From Candidatus Cloacimonetes bacterium HGW-Cloacimonetes-1 (GTDB taxonomy: Bacteria > Cloacimonadota > Cloacimonadia > Cloacimonadales > Cloacimonadaceae), in the NCBI GenBank assembly GCA_002841975.1, contig PHBQ01000015.1, positions 1 through 44,174 of the forward strand: a stretch of 44,174 bases of DNA, given 5' to 3'. This document shows positions 23,597 to 34,208 of the stretch, piece by piece. The notes under the pieces were generated by a model. It was not told the DNA's origin. It ran no database searches and saw only the letters and a program-made list of their open reading frames with translations. Positions within the stretch are counted from its first letter, which is position 1. Each line of letters starts with the position of its first letter. A program made the translations under genes and the position numbers.

Positions 23597-23888
23597 CCCT
23601 TTCTCCTTGTTGAATACTCCGTTTGTTCATTAACACTTAATGCATATTACATTCCATAAATGCACAATTCAGGTGTAAATATAGTTTTTCATATTATCAT
23701 AATAGTATGTGAACCTGAAGGCATAAAGATGAAACTTGGTTTTGCCACAATCTGGCTGGGAGCTTGGGACTTCTATGTTTCTGAACCACTAACATAGGAG
23801 GGAAGAGTGCAAGTGATGTGATATTTCTTGACAAACTAAGAGTAGTATAGAAACATCAGACCAATAGCTATATAGAACTGAGGTTGTG
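23597..23888. promoter_or_regulatory. divergent promoter region with inverted repeats
   Basis: This spacer must drive both the lipoprotein pair (- strand) and the exopolysaccharide operon (+ strand). It contains a 7-bp inverted repeat TTCAGGT (23668-23674) / ACCTGAA (23713-23719) and, between the arms, a palindrome TATTAT-C-ATAATA (23692-23704). Toward the + strand genes are TTGACA (23828-23833) and TATAGA (23846-23851), 12 bases apart. A regulator site is plausible but unproven. Confidence 0.35.
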
Positions 23889-26258
23889 ATGAAGAAGATA
23901 TTGTATGTTGACGTGCCGTTTCAAGGCTTGCAAGGGGGAGATAAAAATCGGAGCCAATTTATTTGGGGTAACTTGTGTAAGCAATTTGATGCAGATTTGG
24001 TTTTAATACGAACCCCGGACTTCGCAACACAGCCCATTCCGGAGCATACTGGTTACGACCAGTGTATAGGTATAACGGCATCAGATAGTCTTCCCTTTAG
24101 CTCACCTGCTATTTACCATTTTTCACAATCTCAAAAACAGAAATTTCGGGAACTACTGAATAGAAAACGTTACGAAATTATCGTATTCCGCTTCCTCAGT
24201 TGCTTTAGTTTGGCCAAAATAGCCAAGGCGACCCTGCCACAATGTAAGATAGTAATAGATGTTGACATGCTGTTTTCCAGGATTGCAGAACTCTCCTGGA
24301 ATCAGAACAAAAGCTTCAAAAATCGATACTACTTCATGGAACTGGTGAAATTGCGTGCCTTTGAAGCTCTTGCCTTTCGCTACGATTTCATGTTTTATTT
24401 TACAAATAGCTTTGAGCGTGACCTGGCAATTGAACGTTATAAACTGAAGGACACCAATGCTTATCTTTTCCCCAATATGATGCCGTCCATTCCTGATGAG
24501 TTTGTGCCCCAAGTAGCAGGAGATCAAAAATACATACTGTTTTTTGGCACCTTGAATTCCGCAGCCAATCAGGATGGCTTCCTCTATTTGGCTAGCGAGA
24601 TTTACCCCAGAATAGCCAAGAAGCTTCAGGAAAAGGACATCTATATCTATGTAGTGGGCAAAAAACCTACCCCGATCTACCAGAAATATGCGGGAACCAG
24701 AATCAAGATCATTGGACCGGTGGACGATATTACCTCTGTTATAGCAAACGCTCTGTTTATAATTCTCCCTCTGCGGGTAGCATCCGGCACTAGAACGAGA
24801 ATTCTGGAAGCTGCGACATTAAAAAAAGGCGTAATTACGACAGAAATAGGTGTTGAGGGTTTAGATTTTGATACCAATGAACTTGCCATTTGCAATGATG
24901 CAAATGGTTTTGCCAAAACAGTGATTCAATGGCTGCAGTCTCCGACTCATGTTTGTGAGAAAGGGGAATTATTGTATCATAAAGCAAGCCAACTGTATTC
25001 CCAAGAGACTGTAACAAACAATTTCTTAAGCTCTATCATAGAGCCGCCAAAGGATTATAGCAAATCGTCGGAGCCTTCAAAGAAGCTAAAAATCGCCATC
25101 ATCACTAACCGCTTTTACCCGGAAGTAGGCGGTGCGGAAACCAATATCTACTATCAGGCACGGAAGCTTGCAGCAAAATATGATGTGACTGTAATATGCC
25201 CCAAACGAATAAAGAAACCCCGAGTCGAAAATCTGGAGATATTTAAAGTCATCAGAATGTGGGATATCTTTAACCTGCCTGCAAAGTATCCATATTTGAA
25301 AGCAAAGACACTGTGCGTAGAGCTATTCTTTCACCTGATCTTTAGCGACTATGATATCATCCAGTGCTATCCTGCCCTCAATTACAATAACATCATCGCC
25401 TTTATTGCGGCAAAATTGACTGATAAACCCTTCATATTGTGTTTCTTTGACTTTATCGACTATGCCGGTGTGATAAAACGAGATGGTAAGATAGATCCGG
25501 ACATTTTGAGAAGTATCCAACCTTCTTTGAATCAGAGATTTGTACTCAAGGGTATGGACTATGCTTTTGCGATAGCAGATAAAGAAATCGAGTTTTTACG
25601 TAGATTCAATCCTAATGTCGAATATTCTCCCGTGCCAATACTTATAGAGGAGTACGATATCCCCACTCAGGATCCACGCTCACAGCTTGGAATAGATGAC
25701 GATAGCTTCACATTTCTCTGTTTAGGTCGAGTTTCGAATATCAAGGGGCAAGATATAGCCCTTCAAGCTTTTGCAAAAGCTCATCGTAATATGCCTGGCG
25801 CAAAGCTGATCTTCGTAGGTCGAACCGATTATGAAACTCCCTTTTATGAGATGTTGCAGGCTTTTGTTACACAAAATTCACTCTCGGAAAAAGTACTTTT
25901 TACCGGGATGCTGGAGCGAGATCAAGTACTTGGCTGGTTACGCTATTCTGATATCCATGTAGTCCCCGTAAGGTTTATGAATTCCGGAGCTGTGGTCGTG
26001 GAAAGCTGGATCAGCGATACTCCGGTTATCCAGAGCAACGTTGTCGATCCCAATCTGGTGGTGGAAGATTACAATGGGTACCTTTTTCCCAGCGAAAATG
26101 TAGATGAGCTTGCCCGCAAAATGATCTTGGCTTTTCAAAGCAGGGATCGCTTGCCGCAATTGGCGGAAAATGGTAAAGCTCTAGTGAAGAGCAAGTACAC
26201 ATATGACTATTTGACAGATATATATACCCGAGCATACTATAAATTGTTGGAGCGTTAA
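23889..26258 (+). CDS. tandem two-domain GT4-type glycosyltransferase
   Basis: A 789-residue protein holding two complete GT-B glycosyltransferases. Domain 1 (about 1-385) begins ILYVDVPFQGLQGGDKNRS and has the donor-side segment ILFFGTLN...VVGKKP...LPLRVASGTRTRILEAA, a GT4-like arrangement. Domain 2 (about 392-789) begins IAIITNRFYPEVGGAETN and has FLCLGRVSNIKGQDIALQAF...VVPVRFMNSGAVVVESW. Single-domain GT4 proteins are about 380 residues, so this is a fusion or a bifunctional enzyme adding two sugars. I chose ATG 23889 with GAGG upstream; the adjacent GTG 23886 is an alternative. It is the first gene of the operon. Confidence 0.88.
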   Translation: MKKILYVDVPFQGLQGGDKNRSQFIWGNLCKQFDADLVLIRTPDFATQPIPEHTGYDQCIGITASDSLPFSSPAIYHFSQSQKQKFRELLNRKRYEIIVFRFLSCFSLAKIAKATLPQCKIVIDVDMLFSRIAELSWNQNKSFKNRYYFMELVKLRAFEALAFRYDFMFYFTNSFERDLAIERYKLKDTNAYLFPNMMPSIPDEFVPQVAGDQKYILFFGTLNSAANQDGFLYLASEIYPRIAKKLQEKDIYIYVVGKKPTPIYQKYAGTRIKIIGPVDDITSVIANALFIILPLRVASGTRTRILEAATLKKGVITTEIGVEGLDFDTNELAICNDANGFAKTVIQWLQSPTHVCEKGELLYHKASQLYSQETVTNNFLSSIIEPPKDYSKSSEPSKKLKIAIITNRFYPEVGGAETNIYYQARKLAAKYDVTVICPKRIKKPRVENLEIFKVIRMWDIFNLPAKYPYLKAKTLCVELFFHLIFSDYDIIQCYPALNYNNIIAFIAAKLTDKPFILCFFDFIDYAGVIKRDGKIDPDILRSIQPSLNQRFVLKGMDYAFAIADKEIEFLRRFNPNVEYSPVPILIEEYDIPTQDPRSQLGIDDDSFTFLCLGRVSNIKGQDIALQAFAKAHRNMPGAKLIFVGRTDYETPFYEMLQAFVTQNSLSEKVLFTGMLERDQVLGWLRYSDIHVVPVRFMNSGAVVVESWISDTPVIQSNVVDPNLVVEDYNGYLFPSENVDELARKMILAFQSRDRLPQLAENGKALVKSKYTYDYLTDIYTRAYYKLLER

Positions 26259-27482
26259 ATGCTTGATCTTGAACCGGTAGAATTGCCACACAAAATCCTG
26301 ATGGTAAATTCAAACAGGGGTTTTGTAGGTGGTGTTGAGCGCTTTATGGTCCAAATGGCCTCAATTTTGAGAGGACAGAACTGGGAGATTTACGGTCTGT
26401 TTGAACAAACTGCATTCCAGCATCCGGAGTTTGACAAGGCATTTGACGATTTTGAAGTTCTGGACTACCTGGAGCTTGAAGATTTGATCGAAGACTACAT
26501 CGACATGGGCATAGAATTGGTTTGTTTCCATAAAGTAACAAAATGGCAGTGGGTCAAGCAGTTACAGAGCAAATTTGTCAATGTCGTTATCGTTCATGAT
26601 CATGACTATTATTGCCTGCGCAGACACAAGTATTTTCCTTTTCGCAGGATAAACTGTTCATTGCCATTTTCGACCATATATTGTCCCATGTGTGCCGGAA
26701 TGCTCGAAAAGAGAGAGCAATCCTTCAAACTAATCGATGTCGAGCAGAAATACCTTACTCTGAAGCATATCCGTGAATGCAATATCAGCTTTGTCTTATC
26801 CGATTTTATGAAAGATAACCTGCTGATGAATAAATGGCAAACCTCCAAAATTCATAAGCTGATCCCTGCGCAAATCCCCTATAATGGATTGCAATCAAAT
26901 GAAAGATCTTCAATCCCAGTGATTCTATATGTCGGGCAATTGATAAGAGGTAAAGGCGTAGATTTGTTGTTAAAATCACTAGCCTTAATAAATACCCCTT
27001 TCAAGTGTATTATCTTGGGCAGAGGCAATGACCAAAAATATCTCGAAGGACTGGCAGATAAGCTGAACCTCAATTCCCGAGTAGAGTTTAGAGAATGGAC
27101 GAATGCTGTTTCAGCGGTTTACCAAGAGTCAGATTTGTTGGTCGTGCCATCACGCTGGCAAGAGCCATACGGCCTGATCGGGTTGGAAGCCTTTGCACAC
27201 AAATTACCTGTGATTGCCTTTGACATCGGTGGGATATCAGAATGGTTGAGCCATAATGCCAACGGAATCTTGGTTAAACCTAAAGATATCAAGCGGCTTG
27301 CAGCTGCCATAAGAGCTTTGCTTAGCGACAAATCTAGACGGCTTAAGCTGGGGAATTACGGCTTTGAAGAAGTACGTGCCGAGCATTCAGCGGAATCATT
27401 TTATCGGTCTTTTATCTCACCCTTAGCTACATATCTATCATTTATCAGCAAAGGTGAAATCACCATCAATGAACATGAGTGA
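26259..27482 (+). CDS. GT4-family glycosyltransferase
   Basis: A 407-residue GT-B enzyme starting directly after the previous stop. The acceptor domain has VNSNRGFVGGVERFMVQ and a cysteine-containing segment (HDHDYYCLRRHKYF...CSLPF...CPMC) typical of a GT4 subgroup with HDYxxxCPR and clustered cysteines. The donor domain has ILYVGQLIRGKGVDLLL, ILGRGND, VVPSRWQEPYGLIGLEAFA (E-x7-E region) and PVIAFDIGGISEWL. It probably adds one sugar to the repeat unit; donor and linkage cannot be read. Confidence 0.9.
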   Translation: MLDLEPVELPHKILMVNSNRGFVGGVERFMVQMASILRGQNWEIYGLFEQTAFQHPEFDKAFDDFEVLDYLELEDLIEDYIDMGIELVCFHKVTKWQWVKQLQSKFVNVVIVHDHDYYCLRRHKYFPFRRINCSLPFSTIYCPMCAGMLEKREQSFKLIDVEQKYLTLKHIRECNISFVLSDFMKDNLLMNKWQTSKIHKLIPAQIPYNGLQSNERSSIPVILYVGQLIRGKGVDLLLKSLALINTPFKCIILGRGNDQKYLEGLADKLNLNSRVEFREWTNAVSAVYQESDLLVVPSRWQEPYGLIGLEAFAHKLPVIAFDIGGISEWLSHNANGILVKPKDIKRLAAAIRALLSDKSRRLKLGNYGFEEVRAEHSAESFYRSFISPLATYLSFISKGEITINEHE

Positions 27483-28740
27483 CAAATATTCGGTTAAAAC
27501 CGGAAGTTTCATATCAGAACTGTTTACCAGATTTATCGATTTGATTCTTTCAATTCTGCTGACTGTATTCGTCAGCTTGCCTGTACTCATATGTTTTACT
27601 TTAAGAAAGATCCTTCTCGGAACTTCAGTTTTTACTTCAGTCGAGGTTTTGGATAGGAGAACTGAGCCCGTGAAATACCTGTTATTCAATTCTAGAAACT
27701 GGTTAGTTTCACACTCATTGCTCTTTCCAAAAGTGATTACGGGTAGACTAAAAATGGTGGGCGTGAGTTTGCATCATGTCACAGGTGAAGAATTAAATGC
27801 TCTTGATAGATTTGTTGTATCTCATACTGCAGGAATATTCAGTTTATTTTTTGTCCGAAGTGGGACCAGGATCGCATTTGTAGGGCAATCTGAGTTGGAT
27901 CTCGAGTACTTGAACTCTCGGAGCATTGGTAAGCATATCAAGATTTTAGTCAAAGCTATCCCGGCGATCCTTTTGTATAGTCCGACAGTAAATGATAGCG
28001 ATCACTTCAATTTGTTTGGTGTTACCCTACTGAACATTAGCATGAAGGATGCAGTCGAATTGATCGACTTAAAAATTACAAACAAGATCAAGACTAGTGC
28101 TTTCTTTGTTAATGCTGACTGCCTTAATAAGATTTTTGTTGACACAGAATATTATCAGATTTTAAGAGAGAGTAAGGTAATTTTTCCCGATGGCATAGGT
28201 ATAAACATCGCACTTCGCATGACTGGAGGTGCTTTGAAAGAGAATGTAAACGGAACCGATATGCTACCCTATCTCTGTGAGAAGTGTGTTGCAAAGAAAT
28301 ACCGGATTTTCCTCTTGGGGGCCGCTCCTGGTGTTGCTGAAGACATGAAGACGCATCTGGTAGGGAAATATCCGGAGTTGAATATTTGTGGTGTGCAAGA
28401 TGGTTATTTTGACTGGGAGTCAGAAAGTACCACTGTGATAGATATAATAAATAATGCTCGAGCAGACTTGCTGTTAGTGGCATTTGGTGCGCCTTTGCAG
28501 GAGAAGTTTATAAATCGTTTTATCGAGAGCTTGAATGCTCCGGTACTGATGGGTGTAGGAGGCTTGTTTGACTTTTATAGTGGCCGCATCCCACGCGCTC
28601 CTTACTGGATGCGGGAAATTGGTTGTGAGTGGGTTTTTCGTTTGATCATGGAACCCAAACGTATGTGGAAAAGATACATTATCGGGAATCCCCTATTTTT
28701 GTATCGAGTTTCTCGCTGGAAGAAATCCCAGCCGAGATAG
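27469..28740 (+). CDS. WecG/TagA/CpsF-type glycosyltransferase fused to a degenerate priming-transferase domain
   Basis: A 423-residue protein from ATG 27469 (ATG 27475 or GTG 27454 are also possible). Residues about 180-423 are a GT26 (WecG/TagA) domain: FPDGIGINIALRMTGG, NGTDMLPYL, LLGAAPGVAED, LLVAFGAPLQEKFI, GVGGLFDFYSG...RAPYWMREIGCEWVFRL. Such enzymes usually add the second sugar to a lipid-linked sugar. Residues 1-175 have an N-terminal membrane helix pair and then segments that align with the neighbouring WcaJ-like protein, GRLKMVGVSL against GDMSLVGPRP and SELDLEYLNS against QLDMQYIRS, but lack the Asp-Glu dyad. This half is probably a non-catalytic membrane platform. Overlaps the upstream gene by 14 bp. 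Confidence 0.85.
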   Translation: MNMSDKYSVKTGSFISELFTRFIDLILSILLTVFVSLPVLICFTLRKILLGTSVFTSVEVLDRRTEPVKYLLFNSRNWLVSHSLLFPKVITGRLKMVGVSLHHVTGEELNALDRFVVSHTAGIFSLFFVRSGTRIAFVGQSELDLEYLNSRSIGKHIKILVKAIPAILLYSPTVNDSDHFNLFGVTLLNISMKDAVELIDLKITNKIKTSAFFVNADCLNKIFVDTEYYQILRESKVIFPDGIGINIALRMTGGALKENVNGTDMLPYLCEKCVAKKYRIFLLGAAPGVAEDMKTHLVGKYPELNICGVQDGYFDWESESTTVIDIINNARADLLLVAFGAPLQEKFINRFIESLNAPVLMGVGGLFDFYSGRIPRAPYWMREIGCEWVFRLIMEPKRMWKRYIIGNPLFLYRVSRWKKSQPR

Positions 28741-28765
28741 ATTTTCAATGGCGGTATAAGTTGGT

Positions 28766-29497
28766 GTGCAAAAGTTGAAGCGTTCGTATAAACAAGACAA
28801 GAACAAGGAAATAGAGCGTTTAATGCTGCTTGGAAAGAAGCGCAGTAAGTTTCATATCCAATTGAAGATGTCCCTTTGGGAGTGGACTGTCGGTTTCGCT
28901 AAGTTTCTCAAATTCTTTATTGATGGTGGCATATCATTGGTGATGCTGGTTGTGCTTTCACCCATTTTTGTTATTACTGGATTGATAATATATATCACCG
29001 ATCCCGGTCCCTTGTTTTATATAGCCCCCAGAGTAGGACTGGACGGAAAAACATTTGGCTTTATCAAGTTCAGATCAATGTTCGTAAATGCCGACAAAAT
29101 GAAAGACGCTTTGATCGAAGAGAATGAGTCTGCGGATGGAGTTATCTTCAAAATGAAGAACGATCCCCGTGTCACTAAAATTGGCAGGATTATTCGAAGA
29201 TTCAGCATCGATGAATTACCGCAGTTAATCAATGTGCTCAAAGGCGACATGAGCTTAGTAGGTCCACGCCCCCCCCTCCCCCGAGAAGTACAGGAATATA
29301 CTTTGGAAGACAGAAAACGTCTCCATGTCAAGCCCGGCATCACTTGTCTTTGGCAGATCAAAGGAAGAAGTGAGATACCATTTCAACAGCAAGTTCAGCT
29401 GGATATGCAGTACATCCGAAGCCAAAATGTGTGGCAAGATCTGCTGATATTACTCAAGACAATACCCGCTGTAATTGGCGGTAAAGGCGCATATTAA
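28766..29497 (+). CDS. WcaJ/WbaP/PglC-like priming sugar-phosphate transferase
   Basis: A 243-residue bacterial sugar transferase (polyprenyl-phosphate sugar-1-phosphate transferase). It loads the first sugar on undecaprenyl phosphate and so starts repeat-unit synthesis at the cytoplasmic membrane. One hydrophobic membrane segment is at about 48-77. The catalytic Asp-Glu dyad is D149-E150 in SIDELPQL, followed by NVLKGDMSLVGPRPP and PGITCLWQIKGRSE. It is shorter than E. coli WcaJ (about 464) because it lacks the N-terminal domain, making it PglC-like in size. The start is GTG 28766, with only a weak ribosome site. Confidence 0.9.
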   Translation: MQKLKRSYKQDKNKEIERLMLLGKKRSKFHIQLKMSLWEWTVGFAKFLKFFIDGGISLVMLVVLSPIFVITGLIIYITDPGPLFYIAPRVGLDGKTFGFIKFRSMFVNADKMKDALIEENESADGVIFKMKNDPRVTKIGRIIRRFSIDELPQLINVLKGDMSLVGPRPPLPREVQEYTLEDRKRLHVKPGITCLWQIKGRSEIPFQQQVQLDMQYIRSQNVWQDLLILLKTIPAVIGGKGAY

Positions 29498-29533
29498 TTC
29501 TTAGATAGTTAAATAAATCCCAGGAGTAGAATA

Positions 29534-29875
29534 ATGGAACTGAACTTTGTAAATCAAAACAACATTGGTGTCCTGCATATAGTTGGACGTTTGGACGCAT
29601 ATAATTCATCAGAATTGAAGAGTTACTTCGATCAAATCTCATTAGAAACCACAAATCATGTTTTTGAAATGGGTGGATGTGAATTTATCGATAGTACAGG
29701 GCTGGGCACCATTGTAGCATGTTTGAAGGCAGCTTCTCAAAATGGTGGAGACATACGGCTGGCTAATCTTCAGGATAAACCACGTATGGTTTTTGACATC
29801 ACCAGAGCCTATAAAATATTCCATATATTTGATGATATTGACGCTGCATTAATGAGTTTCGATTCAGATTTTTGA
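29534..29875 (+). CDS. STAS-domain anti-sigma-factor antagonist
   Basis: A 113-residue single STAS domain. The phospho-accepting serine lies in CEFIDSTGLG, the hallmark of SpoIIAA/RsbV-type proteins, which switch partners according to phosphorylation. It has its own good ribosome site (AGGAG before ATG 29534). No anti-sigma kinase or phosphatase is beside it. Its place inside the polysaccharide operon suggests control of synthesis or export through an unlinked partner-switch system. Confidence 0.9.
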   Translation: MELNFVNQNNIGVLHIVGRLDAYNSSELKSYFDQISLETTNHVFEMGGCEFIDSTGLGTIVACLKAASQNGGDIRLANLQDKPRMVFDITRAYKIFHIFDDIDAALMSFDSDF

Positions 29876-29912
29876 TAATGCAGTACCCACTTTTTGCACT
29901 GACGAGGTTTGA

Positions 29913-31304
29913 ATGCGCTGTTTGATCTATGCCAAGAGTATCGACTCCACATGGGTTAAAGATTGCTTTCCGGAGGTTGACAGATATCTCTTGAAACTGG
30001 TCAACAAGCCATTATTGGAGTACTATTTAGACTTTGCGGCAATACTCAAAATCTCGAGTATTCGAATAGTCTCGGATACTTCAATCAAGGAGATTGAAAA
30101 CCATTTTAAAGATGGTGCAAAATGGGGGTTAGATATATCATACTCTCTTGCTAGACCTGAAGATAGCTTAAAAAGTGTCTACCTCAAAAACATGTCTTTT
30201 TGTCGAGAAGAAGACTTGATAATCTTGGATGGCTTCTTTTTCATCGACTATGATCACAACAATCTCATCTCCTACTTTGAGGAGTCAAAGATAATCTCTT
30301 GCAATGATATCAATAGACACTTAATCTACCTCTCTAAAGATACGCCTTTCAATGAGATTCCTCAACTCATTTGCTACTATGACCAGTCTATTTCTGTACG
30401 TGAGATTTCTTCCGTCCTAGACTACTACAAGTTGTCGATGGAGATTTTAACAAGGAAAAACAAGTCCTACGTTTTACCTGGGTATTCTAACGAAGAAGAC
30501 GCTTTTTACGGGGTAAATTTCATATTTCCCCATACTTCACAAGTGACAAAACCGCTTATGATTGGAAACAATGTAAGATTTAGAAACAATACGAGTGTAG
30601 GACCTGCTGCGATTATCGGTAACAATGTTATCATAGATGCAAATACAACCATTACCGAGAGTATTGTTTATGAGGATACCTACGTCAGCAGCGATTTGGA
30701 ATTAAGTGGAAAAATCATTTATAAGAATCGTTTAATCTCCGGATTGACAGGTGATTCCATATTGTTGACAGACAATATCCTAGTGTCTCAAATTGAGATG
30801 GGAATTATGACATCCTTTTTTAACAGGTTTGTGCAATGGATGATATCGTTGTTCTTGGTTATGGTGTTATTGCTTCCCTGGTTGATCTTGTACTTACCAT
30901 ATCGGCTGTTGAAAGGTAAGCCGGTCAGTGATTTCATCATCAACAAAAATTTGGCAATAAAATCCTATCTAGATCCTGAGAAAATGAAGAAATCTTCTTG
31001 GGGCAGATTCTTGCTCCACTTACAGCTGGACAAGTTTGGGCTTTTGTTGCTTGTATTAAGTGCTCGTATACTATTAGTGGGAAATCAAGTCTTCCGAAAT
31101 AATACACGGAATAGGAAGCTTATCAACGATCTACCTGTATACACACCAGGAGTTTATTCACTCTTTGAGAGTGTAGATGCAGAACACGGTAATGTCGAGA
31201 TCTTTTATGAACTGGAGTACATCAATAACTGCTCTACGATATACAACTTAAATATCTTAATGCGCGTAATATGGAAGAGGTTCTGCCATGGATACAAAAA
31301 ATAA
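29913..31304 (+). CDS. sugar-nucleotidyltransferase-like/beta-helix protein fused to a degenerate sugar-transferase domain
   Basis: A 463-residue protein of unusual layout. Residues 1 to about 200 look like a divergent NTP-transferase (sugar-1-phosphate nucleotidyltransferase) fold: LVNKPLLEYYLDFAA echoes the usual 'KP.L..IL' segment, but the N-terminal G-x-G-T-R loop is not evident. About 213-260 are hexapeptide beta-helix rungs (MIGNNVRFRNNTSVG, IIGNNVIIDANTTI). From about 300, two membrane segments and a sugar-transferase-like part follow. There QLDKFGLLLLVL...LLVG (371-390) aligns without gaps to SIDELPQLINVL...LVG of the WcaJ-like protein, with D373-K374 where the catalytic D-E should be, and TPGVYSLFE aligns with PGITCLWQ. 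Both ends may be non-catalytic. Confidence 0.7.
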   Translation: MRCLIYAKSIDSTWVKDCFPEVDRYLLKLVNKPLLEYYLDFAAILKISSIRIVSDTSIKEIENHFKDGAKWGLDISYSLARPEDSLKSVYLKNMSFCREEDLIILDGFFFIDYDHNNLISYFEESKIISCNDINRHLIYLSKDTPFNEIPQLICYYDQSISVREISSVLDYYKLSMEILTRKNKSYVLPGYSNEEDAFYGVNFIFPHTSQVTKPLMIGNNVRFRNNTSVGPAAIIGNNVIIDANTTITESIVYEDTYVSSDLELSGKIIYKNRLISGLTGDSILLTDNILVSQIEMGIMTSFFNRFVQWMISLFLVMVLLLPWLILYLPYRLLKGKPVSDFIINKNLAIKSYLDPEKMKKSSWGRFLLHLQLDKFGLLLLVLSARILLVGNQVFRNNTRNRKLINDLPVYTPGVYSLFESVDAEHGNVEIFYELEYINNCSTIYNLNILMRVIWKRFCHGYKK

Positions 31305-31923
31305 CGTTCGGTTGATCCTGATTGGCGGTGGTACTTGCTCTGGGAAGACAACAATAGCCAAGGCTATTGGGCGAAGATTGAGTGATTTGAAGACTGTGAT
31401 TATCTCACACGACAACTACTATAAGGACCTGAGCTACATGGATCCCGAAGAGGCAAATTTAGTTAACTTTGATCACCCGGATGCCATCGATACCGAATAT
31501 CTCCTGAAGGACCTCAAAGAGATGTTACATGGAAGCGCTGTAAACGTTCCTGATTACGACTTTATTAGTCATTCGCGGTCAGAGGGAAACCTCTGCATCG
31601 CATTTGCTGATGTTATCATTCTTGAGGGAATATTTGCTTTGTATTATCCTGAATTGATAGAGCTGGCCGATCTCAAGATATTTGTCGATACGGATGCGGA
31701 CTTGAGATTGACCAGAAGAATTGTACGAGATATCAAAGAAAGAGGATTCAATATAGAATCGGTACTTGACCAGTACATGGAAACTGTGAAACCTTCACAT
31801 ATCGCTTTTATTGAACCTACGAAAAAGAATGCGGATCTTATAATTCCCGGTGAGAAAGAATTTGATAATGTTCTGTATATGCTGAACGGCTTCTTACTGT
31901 ACGAACTGGTTAGGAAAAAATAG
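31288..31923 (+). CDS. uridine-kinase-like P-loop kinase
   Basis: A 211-residue protein of the uridine kinase/phosphoribulokinase family. The Walker A is GGGTCSGKTT (about residues 13-22), followed by ISHDNYYKDL (substrate Asp/Tyr region), NFDHPDAID, VNVPDYDF, IILEGIFAL and DLRLTRRIVRDIKERG. It overlaps the previous gene by 17 bp and the next by 1 bp. A housekeeping Udk would not be expected inside a polysaccharide operon, so it may phosphorylate a sugar, polyol or nucleoside used as a building block. That is inference. Confidence 0.85.
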   Translation: MDTKNNVRLILIGGGTCSGKTTIAKAIGRRLSDLKTVIISHDNYYKDLSYMDPEEANLVNFDHPDAIDTEYLLKDLKEMLHGSAVNVPDYDFISHSRSEGNLCIAFADVIILEGIFALYYPELIELADLKIFVDTDADLRLTRRIVRDIKERGFNIESVLDQYMETVKPSHIAFIEPTKKNADLIIPGEKEFDNVLYMLNGFLLYELVRKK

Positions 31924-33062
31924 TGTCAAAATACTCTCTGTATGGATCTGAGCTTATTGACTCTAAAATTGATCACATCCTGTGTGTCGTTCGGCAAGAG
32001 TTCCTCAAAGTTTTCCCGATCGAGGAACTGAAAGCACTCGTCTTGGGGGGTGGTTATGGTCGCGGAGAAGGCGGCGTCAGATTTGAGGGAGATGATGAAT
32101 TCCCATACAACGATTTAGACTTTTTTGTGATCTCCCGGGATATTCCCCTTTACAAAAAACTCAAGTACCAAAAAGCACTTGCAGAATTGCATTATAAATT
32201 GACTGATCAACTTGGAATCGACATTGATTTTTCTCCCATTCAATCACTTCGAGCCCTGCCCCAAGCACCATTTTGGTTGGTTTGGTATGAGCTGAGATAC
32301 GGACACCGGATTGTAATAGGCAATACCCATATTCTGAACTATTTGCCGAGATGGGAAGACGATAGTGTTCCTCTTATTGAGGCAGTTAAATTACTGCTAA
32401 ATCGGGGTGTAGGGCTTTGGAAAGCTAAACAAGTAATTTCGGAAGACACCGGCACAGGAGATCTGGATTTCGTAATGCGAAACATCCACAAAGCCATCCA
32501 GGCTATCGGAGATAGCATATTGATCTCACGTCATCAATATCATTGGTCAAATATAAAGAGAATGGAACGAGCCCAGACCACGTTTAAGGAGCTTCCTTTT
32601 CTTCATAATGAGTTTACAGCCCAGTATATCAATTCCATGGAGTTTAAGCTTCAGCCGCAGTACTCTGATCTGTCTGCCGGAGAGATGCTAACAATAATTG
32701 AAAACTTAATACCTACTTTCATTGATGCATATTACTACATATGGGCTTGCATGGTAAGCCGGAATTCGATCGGTCCAGAAAACTATTACCGTGAAATTCA
32801 AGCATACTTTACAAACAATCTTCTCGAGAAGGATGTGCTGAAGAACTTGGTTTTGAATATCAAAGAATTCAAATTTAGTGCCTATTCACATGAATTGTAT
32901 TGCCAATATCCCCGCTACAGATTAATTTGTACATTCCCATGGTTTTTATGGAACGAAGAGTTAGTTCACACGGATATAGATAAGTGTCTATCGCTTTCAT
33001 ATGGTAGTACTCAAGATTTGAGGTATAATCGCTTTATCGAGCTGTGGGAAAAGTATAATTAG
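31923..33062 (+). CDS. pol-beta-type nucleotidyltransferase of unknown substrate
   Basis: A 379-residue protein. Near residues 40-70, LGGGYGRGEGG and, after a short insert, NDLDFFV fit the nucleotidyltransferase-fold pattern hG[G/S]...DhD. A second acidic patch, GIDIDFSPI (about 98-106), supplies a third carboxylate. The remaining ~270 residues are helical and not recognised. The start is GTG 31923, overlapping the kinase stop by one base, so the two are closely coupled. Possible roles are nucleotidyl transfer to a phosphorylated small molecule or to a protein; the substrate is unknown. Confidence 0.7.
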   Translation: MSKYSLYGSELIDSKIDHILCVVRQEFLKVFPIEELKALVLGGGYGRGEGGVRFEGDDEFPYNDLDFFVISRDIPLYKKLKYQKALAELHYKLTDQLGIDIDFSPIQSLRALPQAPFWLVWYELRYGHRIVIGNTHILNYLPRWEDDSVPLIEAVKLLLNRGVGLWKAKQVISEDTGTGDLDFVMRNIHKAIQAIGDSILISRHQYHWSNIKRMERAQTTFKELPFLHNEFTAQYINSMEFKLQPQYSDLSAGEMLTIIENLIPTFIDAYYYIWACMVSRNSIGPENYYREIQAYFTNNLLEKDVLKNLVLNIKEFKFSAYSHELYCQYPRYRLICTFPWFLWNEELVHTDIDKCLSLSYGSTQDLRYNRFIELWEKYN

Positions 33063-34208
33063 GTGAGTATGAAGAAATTGGCCATGTATGTTTTTATTGA
33101 CGCATTGGGTTGGGAGATATTCGAGAAGTATGGTTTCTTGCAATCGATCGCCCCACATAGTCGTAAATTGGAGACCACTTTTGGGTTTTCTTCGGCTGCA
33201 GATCCGTCGATTTTAACAGGCAGATATCCAGATGAACATACTCATTGGTCAAGTTTCATATACGACCCCAAATATTCCCCCTTCAAGGCTTTGCGCTATT
33301 TTGCGTTTTTACCGCCTCAAATATTCGACAGGTGGAGAGTTCGGCACAACCTGAGTAAAGTAATCAAACGAGCTTATAAATATACAGGTTATTTTCAGCT
33401 TTACAGTGTTCCTTTCAAATTCCTTCCATACTTTGATTACCTCGAGAAGCGAGATTACTTTGTTCCCAACGGGATATTGAAAACTGACACAATCTTTGAC
33501 TGGTGCGTAAAATCACAGATTCCACATTATTGCTCAAACTGGCGTCATACTGAAGAGCAGATCCTGATTGAAAACAAAAAAGCAATCAGTGAAGCCCAGG
33601 CAAAACTGATATATGTATATTTGCCAAAGCTAGACGCCGTGATGCACGAACACGGTCCATTTTCCACTCAGACCGAGGAAAAGCTTCACTGGTTGGAGCA
33701 GCAGATAACCTCATTGTTCGATTATGCGAACAGGATATACGATGACGTGAGTTTGTATGTAATCTCAGATCATGGGATGGCTCCCGTCACAGGTACCTAT
33801 GATTTAATGAAAGAAATCAATCAAATGGGATATGAGTACGGGAAAGATTATGCCGCATTTTATGACTCTACAATGGCAAGATTTTGGTTCTTTAACGATG
33901 ATGCCAAAGCGAAGATCATGAGTCATTTGAAAACATTAGCCTGTGGCAGTATTATCCCGGAACAAGAGCTCATGGAAATGCACGTTTGGTTCCCACACAA
34001 CAAGTTTGGAGACGTCTATTTCCTGATGAATGAAGGACTATTGATAAACCCTAGTTTCATGGGTAAAAAACCGGTAAGTGGTATGCATGGCTATCATCCC
34101 AAAGCCGCTCATTCCTATTCGATAATGCTATCGAATCGGCAAATTCCGGAATCTATTTCTTCTATAACAGATATTAGAAAAACTATGGAGTATGAACTTG
34201 CTAAATGA
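33063..34208 (+). CDS. alkaline-phosphatase-superfamily phosphodiesterase/phosphotransferase
   Basis: A 381-residue protein resembling type I phosphodiesterase/nucleotide pyrophosphatases. Metal-site and nucleophile segments are visible: FIDALGW (Asp), SSAADPSILTGRYPDEHTH (Ser/Thr nucleophile region), KLDAVMHEHGP (Asp and His), VISDHGM (Asp-His) and SGMHGYHP (His). No signal peptide or membrane helix is obvious, so it seems cytoplasmic. It begins immediately after the nucleotidyltransferase gene (GTG 33063; ATG 33069 possible). It may hydrolyse a nucleotide-linked intermediate made by its two upstream neighbours, or transfer a phospho-group to the glycan. Confidence 0.82.
   Translation: MSMKKLAMYVFIDALGWEIFEKYGFLQSIAPHSRKLETTFGFSSAADPSILTGRYPDEHTHWSSFIYDPKYSPFKALRYFAFLPPQIFDRWRVRHNLSKVIKRAYKYTGYFQLYSVPFKFLPYFDYLEKRDYFVPNGILKTDTIFDWCVKSQIPHYCSNWRHTEEQILIENKKAISEAQAKLIYVYLPKLDAVMHEHGPFSTQTEEKLHWLEQQITSLFDYANRIYDDVSLYVISDHGMAPVTGTYDLMKEINQMGYEYGKDYAAFYDSTMARFWFFNDDAKAKIMSHLKTLACGSIIPEQELMEMHVWFPHNKFGDVYFLMNEGLLINPSFMGKKPVSGMHGYHPKAAHSYSIMLSNRQIPESISSITDIRKTMEYELAK

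Follow-up and report, generated by a model that had tools for sequence, protein, structure and literature searches.

Phosphoglycosyl transferase domains without a catalytic dyad, fused to other proteins beside an intact priming enzyme in Cloacimonadota

The window analysed here is the whole of a 44,174-nucleotide stretch of Candidatus Cloacimonetes bacterium HGW-Cloacimonetes-1 (contig PHBQ01000015.1, positions 1 to 44,174 of the forward strand; assembly GCA_002841975.1). It contains a surface-sugar operon in which an intact monotopic phosphoglycosyl transferase (PGT) is flanked by two longer proteins, each of which carries a PGT-like domain without the Asp-Glu catalytic dyad. A first-pass annotation of the sequence had given the positions and motifs of these three genes, and they proved correct.

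These genes, the STAS gene between them and the uridine kinase gene described at the end are on the + strand. The first of the genes (27469-28740) encodes a 423-residue glycosyltransferase of the WecG/TagA family, and consists of an N-terminal pseudo-PGT domain, domain A (residues 3-174, 27475-27990), followed by a WecG/TagA catalytic domain (residues 178-422, 28000-28734), which matches PF03808 with an E-value of 3.9e-60 and in the model is placed by Foldseek on TagA/TarA with a TM-score of 0.95. Next is the intact PGT, a short protein of 243 residues (28766-29497), whose catalytic dyad Asp149-Glu150 is encoded at 29210-29215. It is followed by a single-domain STAS protein of the anti-sigma-factor-antagonist type (29534-29875; PF01740, 1.7e-18), and then by a 463-residue protein (29913-31304), called here the 29913 protein, which we describe below as a putative double pseudoenzyme. 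It is composed of an RmlA/GMPP-like nucleotidyltransferase half (about residues 1-180, 29913-30452), a left-handed β-helix (hexapeptide) segment (residues 200-290, 30510-30782), and a second pseudo-PGT domain, domain B (residues 290-462, 30780-31298), where Asp373-Lys374 (31029-31034) takes the place of the catalytic Asp-Glu.

Monotopic PGTs transfer a phosphosugar to undecaprenyl phosphate by means of the Asp-Glu dyad; the small ones are monomers, while the large ones are dimers held together by a domain of unknown function (DUF) (PMC10942596, PMC12802240). The intact PGT is an ordinary active-type member of this family (PF02397, Bac_transf, which includes PglC, WbaP, WcaJ and EpsZ). It scores 215 bits with Bac_transf and 280 bits with TIGR03025, matches WbaP with an E-value of 1e-47, and contains the motifs D149-E150, SLVGPRP and QLDMQYI. 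It corresponds to a catalytic domain of the WbaP/EpsZ (large) type without the four-helix bundle and the DUF that large PGTs have. A genome-wide search for Bac_transf found the three window proteins and one further gene (L068:7852-9450, G000 contig 6), encoding a 532-residue protein in which the dyad is kept (IDELPQ). Genes of about this length with a similar Bac_transf match are widespread across the phylum.

The first-pass annotation had claimed that both flanking segments resemble the intact PGT, and profile searches bear this out. The curated cut-off for Bac_transf is 27 bits; the WecG-like protein exceeds it with 28.3 bits (E = 1.5e-6; residues 93-173, numbered on a 428-residue open reading frame with a GTG start), and the 29913 protein barely exceeds it with 27.1 bits (E = 3.5e-6; residues 359-455). 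Direct comparisons were made with hhalign, whose E-values are for single comparisons, the database-wide figures being those from the Pfam and PDB searches. They matched the PGT family profile to the 29913 C-terminus (3.6e-11) and to the WecG N-terminus (9.3e-12), and the family profiles of domains A and B to each other (3e-14 across 155 columns). As controls, four pairs of unrelated domains gave probabilities of about 1% or less. Searched against all PDB sequences, the 29913 family profile matched WbaP (best E = 4e-7), and residues 303-460 of the protein matched PglC residues 7-183 (1.8e-6), a match that spans almost the full domain, with the membrane helix included. The WecG-family profile gave a weak match to WbaP (2.6e-4). 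Structures of the two single chains were predicted separately using AlphaFold2, as the first-pass annotation had suggested, and the elements of the two pseudo-domains occur in the same order, namely a long helix, two strands and several helices, with pLDDT mostly about 55-88. We conclude that the two flanking segments are members of the bacterial sugar transferase (monotopic PGT) family.

Active-site losses and retained landmarks

The sequences aligned comprised 27 intact PGTs, 13 N-terminal domains of WecG fusions and 22 C-terminal domains of the 29913 family. The dyad Asp149-Glu150 is present in every intact PGT (27/27). At the same position the 29913 family has Asp in 18 of 22 copies and Glu in none, the residues in the Glu column being Lys (19), Leu (2) and Ile (1), and both residues of the dyad are absent from all 13 WecG N-domains. 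The earlier claim of dyad loss, D373-K374 in the 29913 protein and no equivalent in the WecG-like protein, therefore extends to every relative found. The substrate-site segment that runs from KFRSM to the dyad is also cut down, with 29-32 residues missing in the 29913 copies and 39-41 in the WecG copies, such that the spacing from M105 to E150 is 44-45 residues in the PGTs, 13-16 in the 29913 copies and 4-6 in the WecG copies. The RPP of GPRPP is gone from both groups, with Asn or another residue in place of the first Pro. Compared to monotopic PGTs, the flanking domains of every relative thus lack Asp-Glu, PRP and 29-41 residues of the active site, and from these losses both pseudo-PGT families are judged to be catalytically dead throughout. 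The WecG fusion of genome G055, which reads LIDSLPTLPNILKGD where the PGTs read SIDELPQLINVLKGD, looks like a recognisable intermediate that is probably dead already.

The features shared with monotopic PGTs are the fold family, a putative membrane helix, LVG, the Pro-Gly and the tail. The helix is hydrophobic and has a central (presumably helix-breaking) Pro in 20 of the 22 29913 copies and in 8 of the 13 WecG copies; the models show one long helix and fit a reentrant or a spanning arrangement equally. All pseudo-domains have the Gly of LVG, nearly all have Pro-Gly before the tail, and the D/E..Y tail is also retained. Domain A has kept the membrane helix, the two strands and the C-terminal half. 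In the reading favoured below, the pseudo-domains would have given up substrate binding and catalysis, and what remains of them is the membrane helix together with the C-terminal portion of the fold. Going by the residues lost from its neighbours, the intact PGT would then be the only member of the trio able to transfer sugar phosphate to undecaprenyl phosphate.

The remainder of the 29913 protein had been annotated as a nucleotide-sugar-like domain. The nucleotide-sugar type stands, but the description should be amended to an apparently dead nucleotidyltransferase followed by a left-handed β-helix. The N-terminus resembles RmlA/GMPP nucleotidyltransferases, with tlr0611 as the top PDB match by profile (9.2e-22) and also by fold. 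Nearly all of the best 50 fold matches of the whole model are nucleotidyltransferases, because that half dominates. The PF00483 score is 20.0 bits, under the cut-off of 21.2, and the β-helix segment matches PF25084 (1.1e-7, below its cut-off) and PF00132 (1.1e-6). The catalytic residues of RmlA were traced by alignment. The GGxGTR loop is gone, the column of the catalytic Lys holds Pro in 18 copies and Arg and Ala in one each (20/20 are not Lys), and the column of the metal Asp holds Gly in 19 of 20 copies and Asp in one. The landmarks KPLLEY and GDGxxWG are retained, and W14, D84, K92-N93 and NKP..E are invariant. Since the loop, the catalytic Lys and the metal Asp are all lost, the chain is predicted to consist of a dead nucleotidyltransferase, a short β-helix and a dead PGT, that is, a double pseudoenzyme.

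The invariant head residues would also fit a protein that is still an enzyme but catalyses an altered reaction, whether acyl transfer by the β-helix, as β-helix proteins are often acyltransferases, or a changed transfer of a nucleotidyl or phosphosugar group by means of other residues. We regard this as quite improbable, given that the catalytic elements of the head are lost together with Asp-Glu, PRP and some 30 active-site residues of the PGT part, and that the β-helix segment is only about 90 residues long.

Distribution and gene order

Relatives were surveyed in 125 genomes of the phylum, including the window's own. Orthologues of the 29913 protein occur in 25 of them, spread over four families, and none has an internal stop within the matched stretch. 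The full-length orthologues are 32-53% identical to the window copy and all have the same architecture; 36 columns are invariant across 20 full-length copies. A short PGT of the window type is present in all 25 of these genomes. In 22 of the 25 the PGT, STAS and 29913 genes are adjacent and co-directional, mostly with WecG ahead of them and a Wzz-like gene behind. One contig scan outside the phylum gave only a weak match of nucleotidyltransferase type, in a metagenome-assembled genome of the Oscillospiraceae, and a plasmid scan found no relatives.

A tree separates the PGTs from the 29913 domains, each as one group, with the WecG domains between them, and both pseudo groups are long-branched. 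Long branches are what decaying duplicates without function might show, but this explanation is scarcely credible: the frames are open in all matched 29913 orthologues, the 36 columns are invariant, and the place in the operon is conserved across at least four families. Pseudogene decay was accordingly ruled out. Since the dead copies are kept in many related species, they are probably membrane docks or regulators of the first step and not decayed leftovers. Recent duplication of the adjacent PGT was unsupported, as the 29913 domains group apart from all PGTs, in a position that is unsure because of the long branches. What stands of the first-pass interpretation is that PGT copies lacking an active site are conserved as functional genes, in one case joined to a second-step transferase and in the other to a domain of nucleotide-sugar type; that they hold these partners on one lipid substrate is a proposal, to which we return below.

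That annotation had suggested a search for the same fusions in other genomes, and had treated the two pseudo-domains in parallel, from which the survey departs. The pseudo-PGT-WecG fusion is found in the window and in some relatives, and GT4-pseudo-PGT-WecG proteins in G043 and probably G055. Other genomes have GT4-WecG without the pseudo-domain (G037, G044 and G014) or a stand-alone WecG (G073, G075, G091, G067 and G007). The pseudo-domain is thus an optional module on WecG, whereas every full-length 29913 protein carries its own. Proteins of 599-600 residues in three relatives (L056:5011-6810, L057:5124-6926 and L059:4066-5865) have the pseudo-PGT-WecG arrangement with a C-terminal extension, which in L056 and L059 gives a weak second match to WecG.

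Such replacement by a GT4 fusion, or absence altogether, would be expected if the pseudo-PGT domains were plain membrane anchors that only tether WecG and the β-helix protein, with no contact to the PGT and no regulation, and the hydrophobic helix is indeed their most evident retained feature. However, a bare helix would suffice for this purpose, and the LVG, PG and D/E..Y landmarks are retained in nearly all copies; moreover the 29913 protein is restricted to genomes that have the short PGT. We rate simple anchoring as a serious alternative, albeit an unlikely one.

Possible role in priming

The STAS gene adjoins the 29913 gene, and in most genomes lies between it and the PGT gene, a neighbour left out of the three-protein picture drawn in the first-pass annotation. 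The protein contains the motif DS(T/S)GLG, whose phosphorylatable Ser is invariant in 23/23 sequences, and from this motif and the match to the STAS fold it is a candidate phosphoswitch. The operon yielded no kinase gene for it, but elsewhere in the genome, unlinked to the window, is a gene for a REC-PP2C-HATPase protein (L079:1030-2652, G000 contig 49), which has the architecture of the kinase/phosphatases that control STAS proteins.

Several known systems provide precedents. In myxobacteria the single-domain response regulator EpsW stimulates the PGT EpsZ, and this small signalling protein is proposed to act by direct contact, through promotion of the EpsZ dimer (PMC12802240); the difference is that this pair consists of a response regulator and a large PGT, whereas here a STAS protein and a pseudoenzyme lie beside a PGT without bundle or DUF. 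In Vibrio fischeri a polysaccharide locus is under the control of the single-domain STAS protein SypA, whose target there is not known (PMC10120452). The SypA/SypE system likewise involves a conserved phospho-serine, with SypA acting below transcription (PMC10120452, PMC4517449); here the STAS gene stands between the PGT and pseudo-PGT genes. GMPPA is a non-catalytic nucleotidyltransferase paralogue with a β-helix that binds GDP-mannose and regulates its active paralogue GMPPB (PMC11228364); the 29913 head recalls it, but is fused to a pseudo-PGT beside a PGT, not a pyrophosphorylase. Fusions of monotopic PGTs are already known: in Bi-PGTs, as described in PMC10942596 (citing O'Toole et al. 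2021b), functional domains are fused to a catalytic PGT, and another glycan enzyme may be attached N- or C-terminally. Here by contrast the fused PGT part is dead by its sequence, and a gene of its own encodes the live PGT. In a limited literature search, no dead priming transferase domain was found described as a separate retained module, and we provisionally regard pseudo-PGT domains as not yet described.

The EpsW-EpsZ, SypA and GMPPA precedents, with the invariant STAS serine and the REC-PP2C-HATPase protein, lead us to favour, a little more strongly than not, a priming complex for lipid-linked (Wzy-type) polysaccharide, in which the pseudo-PGT domains are docking modules and the 29913 and STAS proteins form a regulatory or scaffold arm. 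The pseudo-PGT domains would dock their partners at the priming PGT or at its lipid product. In the WecG-like protein this would set the second-step transferase beside what the first step produces, and in the 29913 protein the module would anchor the inactive nucleotidyltransferase/β-helix head, which with the STAS protein would make up the regulatory or scaffold unit. The domains could take over partner contacts, or merely recruit proteins to the same membrane site.

Several observations weigh against such a complex. Sharing an operon is weak evidence that proteins make contact. The STAS-29913 pair is apart from the PGT in G082, and on a different contig in G087 and G089, and in several relatives WecG has no pseudo-domain. 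Confidence in the modelled pseudo-PGT parts is no more than moderate, and Foldseek matches the WecG-like model to PglC weakly (E about 0.1). Finally, G046 and G047 have a close relative of the STAS protein together with a uridine kinase and the double GT4 glycosyltransferase (that of 23886-26258 in the window), without PGT or 29913 protein; the STAS protein may therefore have another partner and need not act solely on the PGT. This arrangement, and the presence of Wzz and GT4 genes in the same operon, would suit STAS and 29913 proteins that serve export, chain length or the double GT4 instead of priming. We think this decidedly unlikely, as the presence of a pseudo-PGT domain itself suggests a link to the priming enzyme or its lipid, and the PGT-STAS-29913 order is kept in 22 of 25 genomes.

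Within the proposed priming complex, a more specific scheme is that a phosphorylatable STAS protein acts via the double pseudoenzyme, whose head would sense a nucleotide sugar and whose dead PGT would pair with the live one. By analogy with the systems above this is conceivable but doubtful. If it were true, priming would respond both to signalling and to sugar supply. Bacterial control of the initial step of polysaccharide synthesis, which consumes lipid, is just starting to be understood, and it is an open question what STAS proteins such as SypA target in polysaccharide loci; the cassette, which sets genes for a STAS protein, a live PGT and a pseudo-PGT side by side, offers a concrete and testable candidate.

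Neighbouring genes

The end of the 29913 gene is overlapped by a uridine kinase gene (31288-31923; TIGR00235, 3.6e-68, above cut-off). Uridine monophosphate is the by-product of the PGT reaction. Such a kinase is found in some relatives only (L036, L043, L047, L054 and L055). Scans for promoters, terminators and ribosome sites gave signals no greater than chance.

Upstream, at 23886-26258, is a gene for a 790-residue protein made of two GT4 glycosyltransferase halves, also present in the clusters of many relatives. Downstream, the gene at 31923-33062 has a sub-threshold match to the nucleotidyltransferase family NTP_transf_2 (E = 0.0026) and occurs in the clusters of most relatives, and that at 33063-34208, of the type I phosphodiesterase/nucleotide pyrophosphatase family, is an operon member kept in several relatives. 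On contig 6 of genome G119, several broken Bac_transf fragments with internal stops lie near an intact gene, which is the picture expected of real decay.

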